A DNA stretch of 64,000 bases from Amphirosellinia nigrospora (taxonomy: Eukaryota; Ascomycota; Sordariomycetes; Xylariales; Xylariaceae). Within the stretch, counting starts at the first letter, position 1. Each line of letters begins with the position of its first letter. The stretch covers positions 2,170,001 to 2,234,000 of the forward strand of contig SCHM01000003.1 in NCBI GenBank assembly GCA_004123355.1, in the 5' to 3' direction. A model generated the notes under the pieces. That model worked only from the letters and a program-made list of their open reading frames with translations, was not told the DNA's origin and did no database searches. Of the stretch, positions 513 to 14,091 are shown in pieces. The translations under genes and the position numbers were made by a program.

Positions 513-3500
513 TTAAACGTCGTTCTGCCGGCTTACGGCTTCGAAGTGACCATTATCTCCATCAGTCTGAAGTTTTACCCAAACAACTGTTTGTTCCTCA
601 AAGGGCAAATCATCTTCTGCCCTCGCCGGGATCAAATGAGCCACGTTGCGTGGGGTTTGTGAGATGTAACCGATACGAAATTGCCTATTAATGTTTCCTC
701 GTCTGGCCCATTCCCGTAACCCAGCCTGAAGGCCGTCTGCCGAAAAATTGTTGAACTCTTCAAGCTGAACTTCATCCATACCCGATAATATACAGTTAAG
801 TAGTTCTTCATCTTCTGGAACCTCTAAATCTGCCCTGTCGAACTGTCTCCGAATTGAGCCCTGCAAAGCTTTGAGCCCGCACAGGTGATTGAAACCGGAA
901 GTATTGTAGCGCCTGAACCTCCCATTGGGGAAGGCTTGGCGTGCCGCAGCATATGCCTCCGCATCATGATAGCCATCGATTCGCAAGACGGTGCCGTGAT
1001 TGTCTTCGTCATCCCCGTCATCCCCGCCATCCCCGTCACCCCCGTCGTCAGCTTCTTCGTCCGGTTGCCCATTGTCAACCTGGCCAAGAATCAAGTCGGC
1101 TAGTGGGTAACTAGGGCCGCTGTCTTGCCCGACTCCAGCTAGCTGGTCTCGATTCTCATTACGGATTCGGCGGATCTCCTCGAGCAAGTTGTTCCTGTCA
1201 TGCAACTGTATCAAATTAGGTTCCATGACTTGCCCCCTCCTATCCACCCTCCCGAAGGCTTGTTTCTGTATTTCTGAGCTTCTTGGGACTTCCGTTATGA
1301 TGACAGTACTAGCCCTGAATATATTAAAACCATGGCCTATAATGTTCATTGTCGATATAAGTATCTTGACAGGATCACCTTCCTTACAATCCTTTTGTAT
1401 GTAGTCAACATACTCCTGCCTTTCTTTAACACTTACGCCGCTATGCCGTACATGAACACTACATTTCTCTCGGAGTATTTAGGGAAAAGTATCATTAACA
1501 TCAAAAATGCCGAGAGTGGGTAGTCAGCGAATAGAAGAAGATGGCGGATGGTAGTCTCGTCGCTTGGCGGTGGTCCTAAGGTAGCTAGGTCGGGATCATC
1601 TGGATTCTTTTCGGAGATTTCTATGAGGCTATTGATCTGTCTCTCTACTTCTTTTATCTTGGGAGATTGTTCATATAGGATGTCTTTGTGCTTCCACCAA
1701 GTGGATGATTGTATTACACCAAGTGCTTCCGTCTTGGCCCTGTAGTCGAGTTTTTTGGGCACGAGGATTTTGCTGATTCTCGTGGCTATTGGAACAACGC
1801 TGTTGCCAAGTATACCTTCGTAGTTCACGGATTTATTTCCAACTAGTTGTGCGACTGTAGGAAAAGTTGAGGATCGTAGCAATAATTGGTGCGCTCGTGA
1901 CGCCGCCGTTCTCCGAGGGCTGTCGGATATGAATTCAAGCCTCCTTTGCGCAATTTCTCTTTTGATAGGCTTCTCTCCCTTCTTGTTTTCCTTTATCCAG
2001 TTGTTCAATGCTACCCTGTATTCCTCATTGATCAAGGACTGAACCTGGGAAACTAGAGTCACGATGCCCTGCAGGGCGCCGACCGGCGTATCGCATTTAA
2101 TTAGCTGGGTACGTCTCCTCCCTAATATCTCTTTACCCCGAAACGTGTCGCCCCTCTGGCGAGATATCATCATTTGACTAATAAATTGCGGTAAAAATTC
2201 AGACAGGCTTTTCCAGCTGCTGTCTCGTGCCTTCAGCTTGTTTCCCTGTAATGTTGTATCATTGAGAGTGCCAACGAGTTGCCTCCAACAATTTTCATAA
2301 TGATCGAAGTCCTCATATTTTTTAAGGCCATGAAGTTCTACTGCGGGCTCTCGTTCGTTCTCGTGTACTTGACGCTCATAGACATGAAAGTTATGGCGAA
2401 TGAACGGTCGCCAATACGAACAATCAGCTCGTGCAGAGCCAGACAATCCAATAGCAAACGGTGGTAGGTCACTTTCGGAGGCTAAGTATAGCGTTTCCAG
2501 CATTTTGAACGGGATTGTCGTTCTCGTCTTGTCTCCTTTATATTTGTGAAATTCATCGAATAAAACTAATCCAGCTCGAACTCCGCACTTTCCAGCATTG
2601 TCGAGGAAGTGTGACATGAAACTAGTTATACGGCTCGAGCTGATTATCACTATATGTCTGTTGTCGGGCTGATCATTCTCAAACCTAAGTGAATTTATGG
2701 CCTCTGGACCAAAGGATTTCTCTGTATTTAAATAGGAAGGATGGGCTACGTGAACCGTAATAGGTGATGCTGATGAACCAGGGCTCGAATCTATCCATTT
2801 GTCCGCCTCTCCAACAAATGTCGGGACCAGGCCTGGAAGAGTGATTATGAGGGTCGGGTAATTAGGCCAATTCAAGGCTATATCGTCTGTGATTGAGTCT
2901 CCGTGGCAAGGGCATCGTACGAATCCCTTCTTCTGACTTGGACAGATGGCAGTCGGACTACTATTTTCGGGTAAATGTCTCCGCGGAAAGATGCCCGAGA
3001 GAAACATGTCTGCGCGCATAAAATGAATCTGATAGGCTATGATGGCGATACAAAACGCCATGCCTGTTTCCCTAATCCAACATCGTCGCCCAATATAAAG
3101 GAATTGAGGTTGTTTCTCGGCTGTATAAGAGCCCTGTAGATGGCAACGGCTTGATACGGCTCAATACCGACACGTATGCCATCAATCCTAATGATGGTAG
3201 CGTCTCTGTCGCAGCCAAAAAAGAGACAAACCTCGTCCCAAAATTTGTCCGTTACCGTCGCCCAGTCGAAGGAGAGATGTTTCATGATATCGTTATTATT
3301 CCCAGTCTTATCATCATATTCATCGTCTGATTGATCGTCCGGGATATCCTTCGACTCATCATCGAGTTGATCACCAGGACTGTCTGCGGTTTTGATGAGG
3401 TTTTGGTCGGGATTAGGAGGGTTGATGGTCTCCCGGCTGGATCAGGAGTTAGGACCAGTGTAGGCAAGCTTTTATTTCCGGCTAAATTAATGGTAGTTGA

Positions 3501-3818
3501 CCCTTGAACTTGAGTCAAGGCTATAATACAACTGCTTCTGCTGTCGACGCTTACTACTCCAGACTCTTTAGGTGGGTAGAGTGTAGCATCTAGGGGTATT
3601 TGGCCATCTCTAAGCAAGGCCGCACGGAAGTCATCGTAGCGAAACTCGGAAGCAACAGGGATTCGGGACCCCTGTAGCCCAGTTCTTACAAAATCTCGGT
3701 AGAAGTAATCAAGGTTGTTTTCGACCTGAACGGAAATCAGAAGATCCTCGAGACTCCTTATATCTTTCACGCTGCTTCTTGTTGCGTCCCCGTCTATGTT
3801 TCCAGAGGCTGAATCCAT
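513..3818 (-). CDS. SNF2-type helicase fused to an OTU-like protease domain (frame interrupted)
   Basis: The gene reads from 3818 to 513 without visible introns. The first ~140 residues match nothing I know, followed by an acidic linker rich in D, E and S. The helicase ATPase follows: a Walker A-like GDDVGLGK near 3060, the DEAH-box equivalent DEFHKYKG near 2540 and motif III-like GLSGSA near 2440. The C-terminal lobe has an IGHGFNI segment and the motif VI-like QKQAFGRVDRRGQ near 1260, which places it close to the SNF2 superfamily. After an acidic Gly/Asp-rich linker (1000-1070) comes an OTU-like domain with candidate catalytic Cys in NHLCGLKAL and His in NGHFEAV. Three single-base frame changes (near 3410, 3055 and 1440) split it, while both sides remain family-like. 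Genes nearby show the same kind of change, so sequence error is as likely as decay. The role is unknown; ATP-driven remodelling coupled to deubiquitination is an inference. Confidence 0.75.
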
Positions 3819-4461
3819 GGTAAGCCAATCCCAGAACTTGGTACTTGGTTCTCTCCAATAAATATTTCTTGGAATTTTTTTATCTCTTCTTATTGATTTG
3901 GATGGTTTTGCATGTAATATATTTCTGTTGATTCACCATGACATCTAATAGCTTCTACACAGCGATGAAACTTCGATGGGGTGATTATGCTCGCGACTCA
4001 AATGTGCGAAAATCAATGCTTTCGACAATATCTGCAGGACTAAGAATGCTGATTGCAAGGAACGCTTGGCAAAATTGGGGTTATTAGGGTGTATTGGCTG
4101 CTTTTTGTTATTGCTGAAAGAATTATATGTTCCATAAGTCTCTTTATCCATTCAACTTTACATAACGAAACCTTTTCCCCTAGATCGCTTTGTGATTGTC
4201 TCCGATACGATGAAAATCATGTTGGTGAATGCACTTAACCAATAACGAAGCGCATCTTAATCTCCACTCAATTAGTACTGTAGCTTAACGCTAAGTGACC
4301 GTTCTTAGCTTCAAAGCTGAAGATTATCAGGCAAAAACAAAGCAGGAAAACACTAGCGTTAAGTGTGAAAGAAAGAATTATGGAACAAAAGCGTCAATGC
4401 AAGAAGGTGAGCTACCATAAAGCTTTGAAAGACTGATAAAGATGCGATTGCTAGTGCAGTC
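3819..4461. promoter_or_regulatory. Upstream region of the helicase-OTU gene
   Basis: This non-coding stretch is upstream of the minus-strand gene that starts at 3818. Short open frames exist here, but none shows a domain or conserved composition. It ends at a 5-bp target duplication (4457-4461) of the adjacent solo LTR. No clear TATA or binding-site motif could be fixed. Confidence 0.4.
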
Positions 4462-4820
4462 TGTCACACGGACCCTGGTCAGTGCGCAATACAGTGCCGC
4501 ACAGGGTCCCATACGGAGCTCGCGAAATACTACCCTACGAGGCTGAGGCAGTCGTACGAAGTTATCGTGAGTCTCAGAAAGCAGATGCCGAGCTGAACTC
4601 GAACCCGAAACACTCGCCTCACCGGCTACAGAGGTCTTACCTTTCGGTCCCGTGAAGAAGGGAAAGGAAAGGAAAGGAAGGAGAATTCTGAGCATAAAAG
4701 GCGGCGAATCCTCCCCTCAAACGGAGGAAGGAATTAGATCTATATGGCCCCTTTGGCACCATAGTCGTTTATTACTCAAATTGAACCTATTCCAAGCCCT
4801 CAATCAGAGCCCTTGTGACA
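4462..4820 (+). mobile_element. Fossil solo LTR, 359 bp
   Basis: The segment begins TGTCA and ends TGACA, the inverted 5-bp termini typical of LTRs. It is flanked on both sides by the same 5-bp sequence CAGTC (4457-4461 and 4821-4825), a perfect target-site duplication. A TATA-like ATAAAAGG lies near 4694, which suggests the plus orientation. There is no internal coding region or second LTR next to it, so this is a solo LTR left by recombination between two LTRs. Superfamily (Ty3/gypsy or Ty1/copia) cannot be told from an LTR alone. The intact duplication suggests a fairly recent insertion. Confidence 0.8.
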
Positions 4821-5787
4821 CAGTCCCATTCCCAGCGCTACAATGAGTGCAGGTTGTGATGTTTAGTCGGGAGGCAGTCAGCAGCTTCCTTTCTATTTTC
4901 CCTTCACAATGATAGACATGCGGATTTCAAGGATACGTGTCGAGCCGACTTCGCTACCACCGTACTCGTAACTAGAGCTCGCAGGGCTATCAGGGTTTTA
5001 GACGTTCTCGATAATAGTCACCAGCTATTATATGGATAAGCTACGGGAGCCATGAGCTACTGGGCCACTGGCTACTTAGAGTAAGAATCAATCTGTCTTT
5101 AGATTGCTTAAGACATAGAGACAGATGTTCAAGGAGTTCTTGTAAAATGACCTCGTGTAGTATGGACCCCTTTCGAGGAGCCTGGGGCCGGAGGGCCGGC
5201 CCTCCGAGACAAATAGGGTACAGGCGAGGGTATATTTGAGGGAGAAACAGGAAATCAGGAACCTGTTCGATCCTAAATAGATTATTAGTGGAATAAAAAC
5301 CCACGCCGTAAACCTTTAACACAGGCCCTTTCCATATTAGTAGCTAAAGTAGTAGGTCATCTTAGTAATTATGAGTGGTAACTTTCCGTAGATCTCTCTA
5401 TCAACGACGGCTTAATCACAAGCATAACCAAAATCGCAATACGGAAGACTGCTATTGTAACCATAACCTCACCATACGAAGATAGTAGATAAAATTTGCG
5501 CATATCAGATATTTCAAATTGAGGCGGCTTCGCGCCTTGATAACTTAATGATTATCTCTGCCTAAACTTAAACCAAATACATGTACAACCAATCCATAAT
5601 AGCATCTCATATTGATTTATTGACCGGTGCGGACATCCACTAGTGTAATAATTTCAATCGTATATAAGCTATGACTAAACAGTGTTCATTCAACTTGAAC
5701 CACAATCGCCACTATCTTACCACAGAGACCCTTTTGATTAGTGTGTCACGAGCCTGGTGATTTGTGTCTATCAGTCCGTCAGGTGTC
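4821..5787. other. Intergenic, no supported gene
   Basis: The stretch lies between the solo LTR and the 3' end of the DUF1996 gene. It is mostly AT-rich. One minus-strand open frame (5322-5041, 93 codons) has no recognised domain and no homology I can name, so it is not called. A TGTCACGAG at 5744 resembles an LTR start, but no matching end with a target duplication was found. Confidence 0.4.
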
Positions 5788-7549
5788 TTACATGCCCATG
5801 CCGGGAAGATCGGATAGCCCTATAAGATCGAAAGTGTGAGTAAAAACCGGCCAAGCGATAGGAATAGAACTTACACCCGTTGATATTCTCGTCAACTGTC
5901 GGCTTGACAGTACAGGCATTCATCTGTGCGGGCTGCTGCGACTTGAGAGGGTTTCCATTCTCGCAGGCGTTGAACATGCAACTGGAATCCATCGCACGCT
6001 GTAAGGCATCGCCTTTCCACCCGAACATATAGTCTGCATGCGTCCCGTACCCTAGTTCTTTACTTCAAGTCAGTACGCGCTGAATACAAAAGATTCTATG
6101 GGCGGGGGTAGTGGTAGGGTTGGGGTTAAGGTTGTGGGCTGAGCGCATACCATCACCGTAGCTCAGAACAAAGGGTTGTGAGCCGTCCGTGGGCCAAGGC
6201 AAGTTATTGAACTGTGCTGTGTCCCAGAGTGTCTCGTAGGTAACTTGCGGGACGCGGACTATGGCACATAAAATCAGCATCGTTATCTAATAATAATTGA
6301 AAGGACGAGAGATGCAAATCAGAAGTGGGCATACCGGGATGTGATGCTGGGCAAGCTCCGGAGTTGACGAAAGCATCATTCACTGTGTTATACATGTGTG
6401 ATTGATGGTCAGGGCTGTCGAGGTTCTTTCCATCCCAGCATCTGGTACCAATCAGTACACATTAACCGAAATTTATATGGAAGAAGACTAACGCTGGGAA
6501 GTGGTGGACTGTCATGATACCGCCAACACATTTTTGGGTCGGGAACTCGTCGAGCTCGGGGAATCGGGTAGATTTATTTTGTAGACAGACAAATTTCAAT
6601 CCTTTGCTGTACTTGGAAGTGGAAGTGACCTTCCCTGCCGTCATTCTAAAACCCTACACTCGTTAGTATCCTAACTCTAGGAACCACATGGAATAAGAGG
6701 AATAATTACCTGGGGAAATCCTGTGATCTTTTGGTTTCCGTTCGAAAAAAGTCCTGTTGCGTGTAATAGATCGTCATCCCATTAATTCCGAGTGGCAGGG
6801 CATCATTTGCCATTATTGGAACACGTTGGTACGATCCGTTCTGGTGCTTGTACTGCATGACTTGGAGTCAGCTTGATCTAGACACGGTTGTTCATTATGA
6901 AATATCTCTGGAACATAGCTCAAGTGCCATGAAGATTCGTCATCTTGAAGCCATTACTAAGCAGATATGAATAATAACTTACAAACATGACAGCGGTCCA
7001 GTCTATAAGACTCGAAGTTAGTTACCACCATTTTCCATTCTGAGCGTAATGTGAGGGAAATATTAAACGCCTATGGACAGTACCTTCACACGACCAGCGA
7101 AGATATTGTTGTTGAATTAGAAAAATTAACTTAGAGCGTTACTCACAATTAGAAAAGTCTTCGGAAAATGTGCATGTCGTGCAAGTGGCTTTTTCAGCAG
7201 GATCTCCATCCTCAGGTTGCATTGAGGCATTGAAAGCATTTCCGCCAACAATCTGGTGAAGATGGGCTGACGGTACGCTGCCGGGTTCGACGACGGGGTC
7301 GAGTCTTTGAATGCTCAAAGTAGACTATAATCTTAAATAGTTAGTAAGCTTCGCTCTCTCTCTCGATACATTCTTTCCGACAAGTCTAAGAAGAATCCAA
7401 GGCAGAAATTGAGTAGAACAGTAGCTTCGCCCACAAACTAGCAAAAAAGAAGATAGAAAGCAACGGCCGTGGGGGCGTCTTACGCAGCCAAATCGAAGGG
7501 CCGCCTCGGAAAGCCCGGCGAGAGCAACGACGGAGATGATGGACTTCAT
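5788..7549 (-). CDS. Secreted DUF1996-domain protein
   Basis: A multi-exon gene on the minus strand. It starts with MKSIISVVALAGLSEA, a signal peptide, followed by ALRFGC, the usual opening of DUF1996 proteins. Later exons carry HLHQIVGGNAFN (near 7235), CTTCTFSEDFSN, YKHQNGSYQRVP (near 6845), GINGMTIYYTQQ, CWDGKNLDSPDHQSH (near 6435), PQVTYETLWDTAQFN (near 6230), WPTDGSQPFVLSYGD and FGWKGDALQRAMD (near 6020). The last short exon encodes WLSDLPGMGM and the stop at 5788. About seven introns with GT-AG ends are visible. One frame change sits in a run of six A at 6745-6750; one more base there restores the family sequence. DUF1996 proteins are secreted or wall-associated fungal proteins of unknown activity, some with an added WSC domain, which is absent here. 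The family assignment is firm; the function is not. Confidence 0.9.
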
Positions 7550-8844
7550 TGTTGTGAACGACAACGAGAATGTTTGACGATGATAGTTGGGAGAGAGGGG
7601 GAGACGATCATCTATCGTGCTAATCTATGTATATGTATTTCTCTGATTCCAGCCGGCTATTTGCCGGCAAACATGCCAAAAAAAAAACACTTGTTCAGTA
7701 TCATACCTCTCTAGTTATTGCTACTTCCAGTGTCGTCATATGTTCATCTGTCCAATTTAGGCGACTGGGACGGTCGAAGCCGGATACCACCCCTCCGCAT
7801 TCTGTTCATTAAGATTACCGGGGTATTGATCCGGCAGTAGCATAACCGCCTAACAACACATTGTGAGCACATCTCTGATTGGTACATATGTTGATTAATA
7901 TTTACAATCACGTGGAGATATTTCTTGTCGATATTAAATTCAAGGAGCACAGCACAGGGCTATGATAATGTAAATTGAATTAAATTTAGAACAGCTTGTG
8001 AAGAGCACTGTAGCTGCAATGCCGTCCTAACCGTAGGCTTTGGATACCCTCTATGTCGTCATCTTCGGTCTAGTATAAGGTATAAATCAATAGAATACTT
8101 TATTATAGAGCTTCCTGTATTGCTTGTTGATTGATATCTTTCCATTTGATACAGGTGACGAACGACTCTAGTCATTAGTTCTAGAGTCTACTATTATAAT
8201 TATAGTTAAGCGAACCTACATTGTACGGACGACTCAAAAGGATACGCAACAGGAGTACCTCAAGCTTGAAATATAATAATCTATTTCAAAACTTAAACAG
8301 CTTGTCCTAGGACCACATAGAGATGTTTCGTGAGTGGTTCTGCACTAAAAAATGAGGCTCAATAATTGTAACAGTTTGGTATCGAAATAAAGTTCCAACT
8401 ACTGCCGACGAGCTAAGAAAAATCAATTTAATACCGCTCTGGGCATTAGAGAATCCCCGAGGTTGCGCCTTTGCTTTGTGACCTACGCGATTTGCATGGT
8501 GGTCTGTGATGTTATGCCCAGAAGCCAATGTACCCGGCATTTCTAATATGAGATAGGTGGCCTAACTTGCAATACATGGATTCATCTTATCATCGGCGAT
8601 CTCAGGGTTTATGGTGGCGTTGATGACTCACCTGTGACCAAACTATCTGACTAGATTTAGCTGCACGTCGCTAATCTGGTGGTCTACTGTAGCATAAGCC
8701 TGGTCCGTGATAGGGGAAATGTTCGACGTGCACTAATGTCATCTGACTCCGATAGCCAAGCTCTACCAATTTTAACATCGCTGGCTAAAGTTGTTCAATC
8801 CCGCGAACATATTCGTCTTAGATGTGTAAAATGCCATCGCCTAC
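7550..8844. promoter_or_regulatory. Upstream region of the DUF1996 gene
   Basis: The near part (7550-7800) is the probable promoter and 5' leader of the minus-strand DUF1996 gene. The rest is AT-rich and contains only short open frames without recognisable products. It ends at the CCTAC target duplication (8840-8844) of the next solo LTR. Confidence 0.4.
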
Positions 8845-9043
8845 TGTCACAAGGCATCTCCTGATCTCACGATACCTTGTCTGACACGCCAAAACACTCA
8901 CCTTCCTAAGCCTCATATAGACTCCGTAGGAACAAAGGACCTAGATGTATATAGCCAGGGGCTAGCCCCCAGAGACCCTTAGACTCTCTGCGCAACAACA
9001 TATATCAATATACACCCCATACCCTGATAGTGAGGTCCTGACA
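8845..9043 (+). mobile_element. Fossil solo LTR, 199 bp
   Basis: Starts TGTCA and ends TGACA, and is flanked by a perfect 5-bp duplication CCTAC (8840-8844 and 9044-9048). A TGTATATAG box lies near 8947. The tail contains CTCTGCGCAACAACA followed by a TACACCC stretch and GAGGTCCTGACA. The LTR at 38455-38594 has a clearly related tail, so both belong to one family or to sister families. No internal region remains. The target duplication is undamaged, so the insertion is not very old. Confidence 0.85.
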
Positions 9044-9858
9044 CCTACCATATATGTAGCAAGAGCTCATATCGAGAGCTTGTATTAAGATCAATTTAGT
9101 TGGTAATCGTTTATGGACCGACAGGTGCCATAAGTTTCCTGTTTGTCATTTCTAGGCAATATGCTTCCATGTCCTTCATATTGCTATATTCTTATATCGA
9201 TTCCTACAGCCTCATGGAGCTCCGTCGGCTCGTATCTTTGGAATCTGACCGTATTCAACCACTTGCGGGACATCTGTGTCACAGGTTCCCTGTCTCAAAC
9301 AGTTAAAGAGTTAGCTATACAAGAAGAAGCGTAGTAGGCACGGAAATTTTGTTTGATAAATGCACAGACAAAAGCATCTTGGGCAATATATTGAACTCAG
9401 TTGACTCCGTCGTCTACGGGGAAAGATACTAGAGGTCGAGCACTAGGGGATAACCTCATATCGGCGGCGACAAGACAATTGAAACCGTTAAAGCTCTAGG
9501 TCGAAGGAAGCCAGTCAGACAAACATACCCATTCTAATTTAGCTTCTAATTTTAAGGATAATCCAAGTCTATTTCTTTTCATGACTCATCATAGACTAGC
9601 TCTCAGCTATATTTATTTATCGCTGGTGTGCGTGAGTTCTCTCTGCTTCTATGGCGCCTGTTTCTGAGGATTTCCCCAGGAGCGGTACTATCTCCTTGAT
9701 TCCAATCGCTATGATAGTAGATGACTTTATCAACTTTTCATACGATCTATCTAGGGCAAATATCGGTATCCATGCTGGACTCAGTCATCTAGACACTAAT
9801 GGATCAAACCAGTGGTCTGTCTGTCTCTAGATATGGTTTCGAATAATGTGTAAGATCT
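9044..9858. other. Intergenic, 3' side of SUP35
   Basis: This stretch is between the solo LTR and the SUP35 stop codon. It contains only short open frames (for example 9100-9306 +), none with a recognisable product. The 3' untranslated region of SUP35 should lie near 9700-9858. Confidence 0.4.
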
Positions 9859-12800
9859 TTACGCGGCTTCTTCAGTGATGAGTTTGGTGATCTTGCCAAT
9901 GGCAATGGTTTGTCCCTAGAATTCATCAATTAGTGTCTATATCGATGATGTCAGAAGGACGATGGAGTGAGTTTACCTGATCACGGAGGGTGAAGCGACC
10001 AAGTTGAGGTGCGTCGTCAAACGTTTCGACACATACAGAACCGGCTCCACCCGTAACTTCCATACGCGCAATGATGCTATCGCCCCTCTTTGCGTGCGTA
10101 GGAGGGACCTTGCTCTTCCTATTGGTACCTTTTTGAAGCTTATGTAATAGTGCAGAAAATGTGACCTCTTCAATGGCGGCATGTACGTGAAGCACACAGT
10201 TGAAACCCGCGGTGAGGATGGACTTCAACTCTAGAATCCTGATCTGTGCCTCAAAGGCTCTGACATTATGCACAAGCCGCTTGGGGCTGCACAGAACGAA
10301 GCCGCTACGAAATAATAAGTCAGTAACTGCCATATGAGCGATCATACAAGGGCGCAAGAGGGTGTAAACAGCCGTTTTTTGTATCAGTGTGGCAGGAAAT
10401 TTTCATGACACCAGAATGCTTGTCGAATGAGAGGGTTACATACGGTGAAATATCGTCCTCTTCAATACCTCGGAGACGCATTCGAACCTGGTCACCACAC
10501 TGACCAATCGGGATTTCGTCTTCCGTTTCACCATACAGAGCAGCAATCTCAACCTTCTCTTTGTTAGGCATCATTATTACGGTCATGCCCTTTCGACAAA
10601 CGCCGGCCTAGTTAGAATACACCAGTCAGCGATTACGATTCACGATGAACTTTAGAAGGTTTCAGAGTTATGGACCATCTTAGAAACCACAAAGAATGGG
10701 AATCAGAACATGATAGACGACTTGCCTCGATTTTTCCTTCCACCATGGTACCCATATCACGATACTTTCCAGCGACAGCCATCATGAAACTTGAATGCAG
10801 AGCGTCAGAAATATAGATTCAACAATATTATGGTGATAGTTTGAAAAGCCCAGAAACGGCCCGCAAACATATCTTTTAGAACCCCAGGGTGCCAGAAAAG
10901 AATGGATGAGATTACTTACGGTGCCTTAACCTTGCGCTCCAAGGATTGCATGTTATCCAAATATTCAAGCAATGAGGGGCCATCATAGAAAGGGCAACAC
11001 CGACTGGAAGTCTATCCTTGATGTTCATCAACTGCTGAGCAGCGATGGGCATATAAAGATATCATTCTTATTGTACCCCACCTATTCACCATAAAGCGTC
11101 AGTAATTTGATATGAACTGTGACACTACATTCAATATGTTGTGTATAAACCAGCTCGGCTAACTTGACACACTAGAAGGAGCTCTAGAAACGTTGATAAC
11201 ACGTACCCCCTTTAAGAATTGTGCTAGTTTGGTGGTGCATTCTTTATAACGAGCATGCGACCATTCAACTGTTGCGTCGTCCATCTCTGTTCGGGAGTTA
11301 GCAAAAAATGTTTTATCAAACAAATATACCTAGGGGTATAAATATTAAGACTCACTGTTGATAACAACCACAAGTTCTGTGAAAGATCAAGAGTTAGAAA
11401 CTACTTTTCGTAACACAAGAATGACCCATGAATATGATTATTCAGGAGCATGCACAAGGGAAATAGATCTCAGAAATACTAACTATTAACACCTTGGGTC
11501 TTCGCAAGCATAGCATGCTTTGTATAACACAGGAGTTAGTAATTTTCACCTAATAGGAATTTCCAGAGTTTTGGGAGCTTTCAAGAGCCACAAGAGCCAT
11601 ATCCAAACAGGGGGAAAGGGGAAAAGGGGAAGGGTTTTAACAACTCACCTCACGAGTTTGACCGCCTTTCTCAAATCCTGTTTCATATTCACCTTTGCGT
11701 GCGGAAATAACAAGGACGCCGACGTCGGCTTGGGCAGCCCCGCCGATCATGCTCGGGACGTATGTCTTGTGACCTGGTGCATCAAGGATACTATATCGGC
11801 GTTTCTCGGTTTCGAAGAAGCCTCGTCCAACCTCGACAGTCTTGCCCTTTGCTCTCTCCTCCTTTGTGAGATCCAGAGCCCATGACAACCACCATGATTC
11901 TCGGCCTAGTTCCTTTGCTTCTCTCTTGTATTTGTCCACTACCATCAAGAATTAGTAAACTTCTTCCCGAGGGATTCCCGTGGGGATATGCAATGGTCAT
12001 AAAAATTGCTACCGCCTAACTGGGCATTTCTTCCTCTGGAATTGATTGTTCGGAAGAAAACGGCGCTCCATATACTTACTTGTCCTCTCGTCGACCATGC
12101 CAGTAGCGTAAAGAATACTGCCTCCCAAAGTACTCTTCCCGGCATCAACGTGACCCAGGAAAATAACGTTCACGTGCTCCTTGCCGTAAATTTCCTTTAA
12201 TTTCATCATCAACATCGGCAGCCTGCTCATTCACGACGGCGTCGGCATCACGAGTTGGGCCTTTAACCCTCTAAGGGGCTAGATCGACCGGAGGATGGCG
12301 TAGGCGAGGTCTTCCCACTGGCGCCTTTGGTGGGCTTGGTAGTTTCGCCGGCTTTCTCGAGGGCCTTCGCGGCCGTCACCTTTGCACCGCCATCAGCAGC
12401 ATCCTGCTTCTCGGCGGAGACATCTTCTTTCGGTTCTTTTGTTCCTTTTGGCTCGTCCTTGGATTCCTCCTTTTGCGCCGTAGGCACGCCGATGGAGAGT
12501 ACCTTGGCGGCCTTGGGCTTGGAGGAGTCGCCACCTATGCTCAAGACCTTTGCGCCACCCTCCTTTGTGACTGTGGGCCTATTTAGGTCAGAGGCAGGGG
12601 GGTTAGCAGTGACTTGATCGGGGCGCTTCGCGAGAGTGGGAGCACTCTGGGGTGCGTTCTGCTGTTGCTGGTTCTGGCATACTGCTGTTGACCTTGGGGA
12701 AAATTAGCCGAGGGGACAGAGACAGTAGCGGGGTTTGCGCCTCACCGTATCCCTGGTTATTGTAGCCGGCTTGCTGGCCGTAGACGTTGCCGTAACCCTG

Positions 12801-13097
12801 GCCATAGCCCTGGCCGTACTGCTGCTGGTTATACCCACCAGCCTGGCCATACTGAGGGTAGTAGTTCTGGCCGCCATAGTAGCCCTGCTGTGGTTGCTGG
12901 TACTGGTTGTAGCCGCTGTAGGCCGGCTGGCCAGGCTGGAAGCTGTGGGCGGTGGGTTGAAATGAGGCGGCGCCGGGGCGGAACGTTTGCGCCGTGGCCG
13001 GGTTAGGGTTGTTGTTGAGGTTCATCTGCTGTGTCTGGCGCGACAGGTTGTCGTCCTGCGCAGCAGGGTCGTCCTCCCACGAGTTGAGATCAGACAT
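9859..13097 (-). CDS. SUP35: Eukaryotic release factor 3 (eRF3, Sup35)
   Basis: GTPase that acts with eRF1 to end translation at stop codons in the cytosol. Exon 1 (13097-12746) encodes MSDLNSWEDD and a prion-like head rich in Q, N, G and Y (repeats such as QYGQGYGQGYG). An intron follows (12693-12745). The charged Lys/Glu-rich M domain spans 12690-12250. The GTPase domain has G1 GHVDAGKST (near 12145), DERT, G3 DAPGHKTYVPS (near 11780), ARKGEYETGFEKGGQTRE (near 11670) and small exons encoding HAMLAKTQGVN, LVVVIN and MDDATVEW (near 11270). The C-terminal barrels include MVEGKIE, GMTVIMMPNKEKVEI (near 10575), TAGFNCVLHVHA and a final exon ending GKITKLITEEAA. About eight introns. Single-base frame changes occur near 12675, 12200 and 11060-11000, mostly in short homopolymers; since eRF3 is essential, these are probably sequence errors. 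Its promoter region is shared with the divergent gene at 14092. Confidence 0.96.
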
Positions 13098-14091
13098 AGT
13101 GGCGATACGATGTGCTAGCGCTGCAGGTCTATGATTCTAGACAAGGGGTGTGAGAAAAGGCCTCGCTATGGCGGAGAGAGAGGGAGAGGAAAGGGAAAGA
13201 GAGATGTTGTGGTCGATGAAGGATTAGGAGACTGTCTCAGATGCTTGACGAAGCCACTGACTCTGGTGGGATGAGCAAAAGCAGTGGTCGCGACCAGGGC
13301 GAATATATATGTAGAATACAATAAATAAATACCTACCTGGCCTATCTCTAAACCTTTCGATTGCGACACCTCTGGCGGTGGTAGGATTGTTGTCGTCAGT
13401 GACTCAATTGGAAGATTCTGCCTTGCCTGATGCTGGTATCTAGTGGGACCTTGAGATGGATCAAAGGCGGGTTTCCTAGGTGCTTGGAGTGTAGTGTATT
13501 CCGTTCAGTCCTTGAGATTTCAAAGTCAGGCAAAGGTTCTCTCTCAGTTGGTCGATGTGATGTTTCGTGGTGTGGCTTTTTGGTGGGGCCCGTGGCGGGT
13601 AGTTGATCTGGGTCTGAGTGGCCTGCCTAGCGCAGCTCGACCCCACCAATGACGATGTAGGTACCATGTAGCTGGCCAGCTACGCATTAAACCTGGGCTG
13701 AGCATAGGCCATCTTTAATCCCCTATTAGGCACTACCCAAATACAACTTTTAGTACACATACCTAGAAGCCCAATGGTGCAACCTCCATGTATCCGTCCC
13801 TTCGCACCAACCGCTAACGACATATAAGGAGCACAATCAATAACTACCTAGGTAGGTGCCTTACATAAATTAGGTACACATCTCGACGTGTGGTTTTAAG
13901 CCGGGTACTCTATGCATAACAAACAAACCTTGTGTGTCTGCAGGTCACCTTTTCTCCCTTCGCCTTCGCCCTCGCCTTCGCCTTGTCCCTCGTGAAGTGG
14001 ACGTCCACAACATTTCATTTCGATGCATCTACAATATCCCAATCTACAAAGCTTCGTGTGTGGAGCGGAGGCGACTGAGCAACTGCTGTTA
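13098..14091. promoter_or_regulatory. Divergent promoter region between SUP35 and the YRB30-like gene
   Basis: About 1 kb separates two genes transcribed away from each other. It contains a purine-rich stretch just upstream of SUP35 (13165-13205), the palindromic TACCTAGGTAGG at 13846-13857 and a pyrimidine-rich CCTTCGCC repeat at 13958-13985 just before the plus-strand gene. No open frame here has a recognised product. Shared regulation of the two genes is possible but not shown. Confidence 0.5.

Follow-up and report, generated by a model that had tools for sequence, protein, structure and literature searches.

Organization of the locus

The window, the whole stretch of 64,000 nucleotides that was analysed (G000:C5:2170001-2234000), belongs to a genome of 48.1 Mb in 11 contigs. 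At 513-3818 on its minus strand lies a gene which is split into four open pieces, overlapping and spread over three frames, instead of forming a single open frame (Table 1). When the pieces are read from 3818 towards 513, the SNF2 motifs, which we take to be Walker A, Walker B, motif III and motif VI, follow one another in the correct order. All six sequence motifs listed in the initial annotation (GDDVGLGK, DEFHKYKG, GLSGSA, QKQAFGRVDRRGQ, NHLCGLKAL and NGHFEAV) were found on this strand.

Table 1. Pieces and landmarks of the gene (window positions) and its relatives in the genome (contig positions).
Feature	Position	Strand	Basis or remark
N-terminal piece from first ATG, 178 codons open	3285..3818	minus	similarity to paralogue L009 to about 3389
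Piece with acidic stretch and Walker A GDDVGLGK (3067-3090)	3040..3441	minus	family profile A1 against INO80
Piece with Walker B DEFHKYKG (2534-2557) and motif III GLSGSA (2432-2449)	1436..3067	minus	alignment with L009
Helicase_C lobe with motif VI QKQAFGRVDRRGQ (1230-1268)	1062..1478	minus	Pfam PF00271 and family profile A2
Acidic Gly/Asp-rich linker, in the frame of Helicase_C	999..1061	minus	open frame
C-terminal tail, candidate papain-like (OTU- or Josephin-type) domain	516..998	minus	same open frame as Helicase_C
Cys codon of NHLCGLKAL	879-881	minus	tail landmark
His codon of NGHFEAV	546-548	minus	tail landmark
Stop codon	513-515	minus	tail landmark
L009	C5:2151358-2154827	opposite to the gene	about 16 kb away
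L023	C9 near 599 kb
L022	C9 near 787 kb
L024	C9 near 909 kb
L021	C9 near 938 kb
L025	C11 near 66 kb
L026	C11 near 171 kb

The gene encodes a diverged SNF2-family ATPase

SNF2-family motors use ATP hydrolysis to move along DNA or to displace DNA-bound protein. The SNF2-like ATPase core proposed for this gene in the initial annotation was borne out by profile searches. Pfam Helicase_C (PF00271) matched the last piece with an E-value of 1.3e-7 (32.3 bits, cut-off 23.5). Profile A2, made of seven Helicase_C stretches of this genome with the window copy included, was compared with PDB chains and matched a RAD54-like chain (8.2e-13), FUN30 (1.1e-12) and also SNF2. Profile A1, made of six Walker A stretches of this genome, matched INO80 (7e-6) and other SNF2 proteins too. 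The middle piece gave nothing relevant when searched alone and no SNF2 match as a two-sequence profile; it aligns with the paralogue L009 over 352 positions at 27% identity (E 3e-29). The N-terminal piece matched no Pfam family and aligns with the same paralogue (G000:C5:2151358) over 134 positions at 31% identity (E 6e-6). Pfam SNF2-rel_dom (PF00176) gave no match with an E-value of 1 or less in the four pieces, a test that is limited by the break in frame within this domain, nor did a search of the genome with this family give a match at the window; L009 itself barely reaches the cut-off (24.9 bits). At the level of sequence, the identity of the gene as a diverged SNF2-family ATPase is confirmed, well above chance. 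RAD54, FUN30, SNF2 and INO80 are alike to it in the Helicase_C lobe and the Walker A region in these searches, whereas the gene differs from all four in its low identity, its Walker B sequence DEFH, a middle piece that is unmatched alone and the extra tail.

Weak local matches around Walker A and motif VI were also seen to the bacterial proteins DrmD (of DISARM) and DpdE, with values of 0.0022 for NCBIfam DrmD and of 1.8e-4 to 0.024 for PADLOC DpdE and DrmD. Membership in DISARM or Dpd systems was rejected, since short helicase stretches alone match and the host is eukaryotic. A plasmid search with the whole last piece returned two weak Streptomyces matches, both confined to the helicase part. 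No relatives of the middle piece were found in viral contigs, and none of the tail in viral contigs and phages.

The helicase lobe and the tail share one open frame

The fusion of the C-lobe and the tail is directly visible in the sequence, as the tail shares an unbroken frame with Helicase_C and no ATG occurs between motif VI and the Cys codon. This frame is open for 321 codons on the minus strand (516-1478) and holds motif VI, the acidic linker and the Cys/His tail; the longest of 860 open runs in the neighbouring 8 kb (4001-12000, a stretch that takes in part of the Sup35-like gene described below) is 158 codons. The methionines of the last piece are at 1349, 1226 and 779, so that a tail encoded on its own would have to begin at a different start codon or draw on an exon further upstream.

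The codon-usage score of the tail frame was 0.053, the best of its six frames, with a reverse frame at 0.022. Background pieces taken from the neighbouring 8 kb (300, one frame each) had a mean of -0.157 and a maximum of 0.041, and the nine training ORFs, scored in sample, ranged from 0.022 to 0.189. The Walker A piece scored 0.133. For the N-terminal, middle and Helicase_C pieces the values were -0.041, -0.044 and -0.054; in each the gene's own frame was the best, yet below all nine training ORFs. The earlier description of helicase and tail as one gene holds for the C-lobe and the tail, while the full 513-3818 is spread over three frames with three breaks which that description had missed.

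Origin of the frame breaks

The first of the three breaks lies between 3282 and 3441, the second at about 3061-3069 and the third between 1433 and 1478. The second falls inside the ATP-binding motif and, if real, would kill the ATPase. This motif is read through in one frame in all five relatives of alignment A1 (L026 was omitted for a stop within its stretch, and no corresponding part was found for L024); the second break is therefore not an intron. At the site of the third break L021, L022 and L025 are in one frame, and L009 and L023 also change frame there. The alignments leave little room for an intron at this site: that of L021 with the middle piece runs to about 1451, and that of L022 with the last piece starts at about 1421. 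The first break may have an intron as its cause.

To place these numbers, the whole genome was scanned for the SNF2 domain family, which gave 58 matches covering 27.3 kb. Matches on the same contig and strand and less than 1.5 kb apart were joined into 36 clusters, which are not curated genes and some of which may be pseudogenes. A break was counted when neighbouring matches differed in frame and were separated by under 35 bp, a gap too short for an intron. Frame changes were seen in 10 of the 36 clusters, with 12 breaks in the 27.3 kb, as many as would fit an assembly with frequent small insertion or deletion errors. Over the length of the gene 1.5 breaks are expected against the three seen, and the Poisson chance of at least three is 0.18.

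The same breaks could mark a decaying pseudogene, an old SNF2 copy in which they are real and from which no fused protein is made. Three breaks, one of them in the ATP-binding motif, amount to about twice the mean rate of the genome's SNF2 matches; the paralogue L009 is split as well, and codon bias is weak in three of the pieces. The gene is otherwise open over about 1,100 codons, however, with motifs I, II, III and VI recognisable, and breaks of this kind are common among the SNF2 matches of the genome (chance of at least three here 0.18). Decay is considered unlikely. Assembly error appears the likelier, though unproven, source of the three breaks, because similar ones occur in 10 of the 36 SNF2 match clusters, and the gene would then be intact.

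A gene on the minus strand at 10323-13136, which we take to be Sup35-like, has a Q/N-rich N-terminus and a GTP_EFTU domain over several frames. Its split is a further sign of assembly indels or of introns, and it was not used as a control for the frame breaks, introns being possible there.

The tail is not detected in the related genes

SNF2 relatives were found at seven other places, which makes a family of eight in this genome; one of them, L024, was recovered in a single genome search (E 1.3e-4) and not at E <1 in the locus comparison. The tail was not detected at E <1 in eight loci (L009, L010 and L021 to L026), and a genome search with the tail alone returned the window itself and C1:1255552 (E 0.054) and nothing else. 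The latter was taken as a chance match, and its adjoining frames read as a FAD-binding oxidoreductase. The tail has thus either been gained by this copy alone or been lost from the others. L009 aligns with the gene up to the start of the linker, where its own frame ends, a pattern that would fit the addition of a tail to a pre-existing helicase, with the reservation that the end of this frame could itself be an assembly error. A SAM-like N-terminus considered for the relatives on C9 and C11 was unsupported by Pfam (four N-terminal pieces, E up to 0.1).

Sequence and structure of the tail

The initial annotation had assigned the tail to the OTU proteases, an identity that Pfam, phmmer against PDB and hhalign leave unsupported. 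No Pfam family matched the tail, and phmmer against PDB gave chance matches only. The genome search with the OTU family (PF02338) was silent at the window and found two places on C1. An OTU profile was made of these two places and two OTU1 structures; it recognised OTUD5 (97%, E 5e-11), an easy control since OTUD5 had matched the profile already. Compared by hhalign, the tail reached an E-value of 0.84 over 12 columns with the OTU1 profile and of 0.38 over 4 columns with a two-sequence Josephin profile. A search of the genome with PF02099 gave no match, though the control genomes gave none either.

The Cys/His motif pair was also looked for with a regular expression in the open frames of at least 100 codons of the window and eight loci. 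The only match in 42,437 residues was the gene itself, and three matches were seen in 100,000 shuffles of the tail. The expression was written after the sequence had been seen, so this rarity is post hoc and at most suggestive.

Single-sequence AlphaFold models of the tail were made for 187 and 138 residues (pLDDT 42.6 and 47.3). In both of these low-confidence models helices come first, four strands follow and the His is placed on the final one; the Cys comes eighth in its helix (residue 66 in helix 59-81 and residue 17 in helix 10-32). In papain-like enzymes the catalytic Cys is at the start of a helix, and in OTU and Josephin domains helices precede the strands, as in the tail models. The helical position of the Cys and that of the His on the final strand can be read as weak hints of the fold. 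Foldseek returned nothing under E 0.001 for either model, and no OTU protein was present among the best 50 of 70 matches for one and the best 50 of 181 for the other. SENP7, which appeared three times in the Foldseek results of the first model (E 3.6 to 5.2), was treated as noise. The lack of a significant match to OTU or papain-like folds had been named beforehand in the initial annotation as the outcome that speaks against its proposal; this is what the searches gave, the models being too weak to serve as a test of the fold.

The likeness to OTU and Josephin deubiquitinases thus lies in the models, of low confidence, which place the Cys in a helix, the His on a late strand and the helices before the strands; the differences are the lack of a sequence-profile match and a Cys that is not at the start of the predicted helix. 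We judge the chance of a papain-like fold for the tail to be somewhat short of even. A credible, if tentative, alternative is an ordinary diverged SNF2 ATPase with a lineage-specific, non-enzymatic extension as its tail, for example a protein-binding module, with the Cys and His there by coincidence. Such an extension would account for the absence of any family or structure match, for the finding of no second credible tail in the genome and for a Cys away from the helix start; it sits less well with the scarcity of the motif pair among shuffled tails, for all that the expression was post hoc, and with an element order in the low-confidence models which is that of papain-like domains.

Proposed activity and comparison with known systems

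The reading that is tentatively preferred is that of a SNF2-family ATPase carrying, as an added tail, a papain-like peptidase-type domain that trims ubiquitin or ubiquitin-like tags, with the frame breaks as assembly errors. A C-terminal domain of about 140-160 residues would have been added behind the acidic linker to a diverged SNF2 ATPase. By analogy with other members of the family, the ATPase would move on, or remodel, DNA-bound protein complexes. The tail, to judge from the Cys/His pair and the predicted helix-then-strand order, may be of the papain-like cysteine-peptidase type, and it could remove ubiquitin, or a tag that resembles it, from whatever the motor engages. That it is an active deubiquitinase is a doubtful prediction. 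Rather unlikely, too, is the bolder form of this proposal, in which a chromatin motor and a deubiquitinase of a new papain-like family, so distant from OTU and Josephin that present profiles miss it, form a single chain that would strip ubiquitin or SUMO from DNA-bound proteins while moving. The architecture is unusual and the function of the fusion is unproven; it might act in silencing, in repair or in the defence of the genome, as put forward in the initial annotation.

SNF2 proteins coupled to ubiquitin include RAD5, HLTF and SHPRH, which carry a RING ligase, and SMARCAD1/FUN30 with CUE. These likewise join a SNF2 motor and a module of the ubiquitin pathway on one chain. The known proteins of this kind attach or bind ubiquitin, whereas the candidate tail, if a peptidase, would remove it; a single-chain motor and deubiquitinase, if true, would be the reverse of the RAD5/HLTF arrangement. 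Should the tail be a deubiquitinase, ATP-driven movement on DNA and the removal of ubiquitin-type marks would be united in one polypeptide, with a substrate that is directly testable. Should it not be an enzyme, the gene is one more diverged SNF2 paralogue. A description of a SNF2-OTU fusion was not found in the open full-text literature, which leaves out most subscription journals. Fusions of SNF2_N and Helicase_C are discussed in a study that screened 1,237 genomes for fungal host-transposon fusions, and a search for OTU in its main text gave no result (PMC10799480).

Genomic surroundings

The location of the relatives raises the further question of a mobile-element gene, either Starship cargo or part of a DNA transposon that bears a helicase and an OTU domain. 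Of the seven relatives, six are on C9 and C11, small contigs (1.3 and 0.25 Mb) that may be accessory and that also bear matches to the DUF3435 recombinase. OTU proteases occur in Helitrons, but the Helitron helicase is of the Pif1 type and that of the gene is SNF2-type. Among the 36 DUF3435 matches listed, which fall on C1, C4, C6, C9, C10 and C11, there is none on C5, so that linkage of the gene to a Starship through this tyrosine recombinase was not found there. Moreover, no near-identical copy of the protein pieces is present in the genome, the best other match having 50% identity, and a mobile-element origin is considered very unlikely. Most of the matches listed for this Starship-type recombinase are on C9, C10 and C6.

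About 640 bp upstream of the gene start, at 4462-4820, lies a copy of a dispersed repeat of about 360 bp, possibly a SINE or MITE. Of 348 candidate copies at first look 40 were scored. At least 40 near-full-length copies, with 91-99% identity, are among the 46 non-self matches listed. No tRNA and no Rfam family at gathering score were found in the window.

Two of the related loci have neighbours of their own. On the 253-kb contig C11, at L025:3600-7233 (about 64.6-68.2 kb), an AMP-binding domain is followed by the SNF2 relative. At L024:1707-5505 (G000:C9, about 905.7-909.5 kb) a LINE-like element, with a match to RNase H and a reverse transcriptase recognised by eye, stands shortly before the remnant of the SNF2 relative and may have truncated it.
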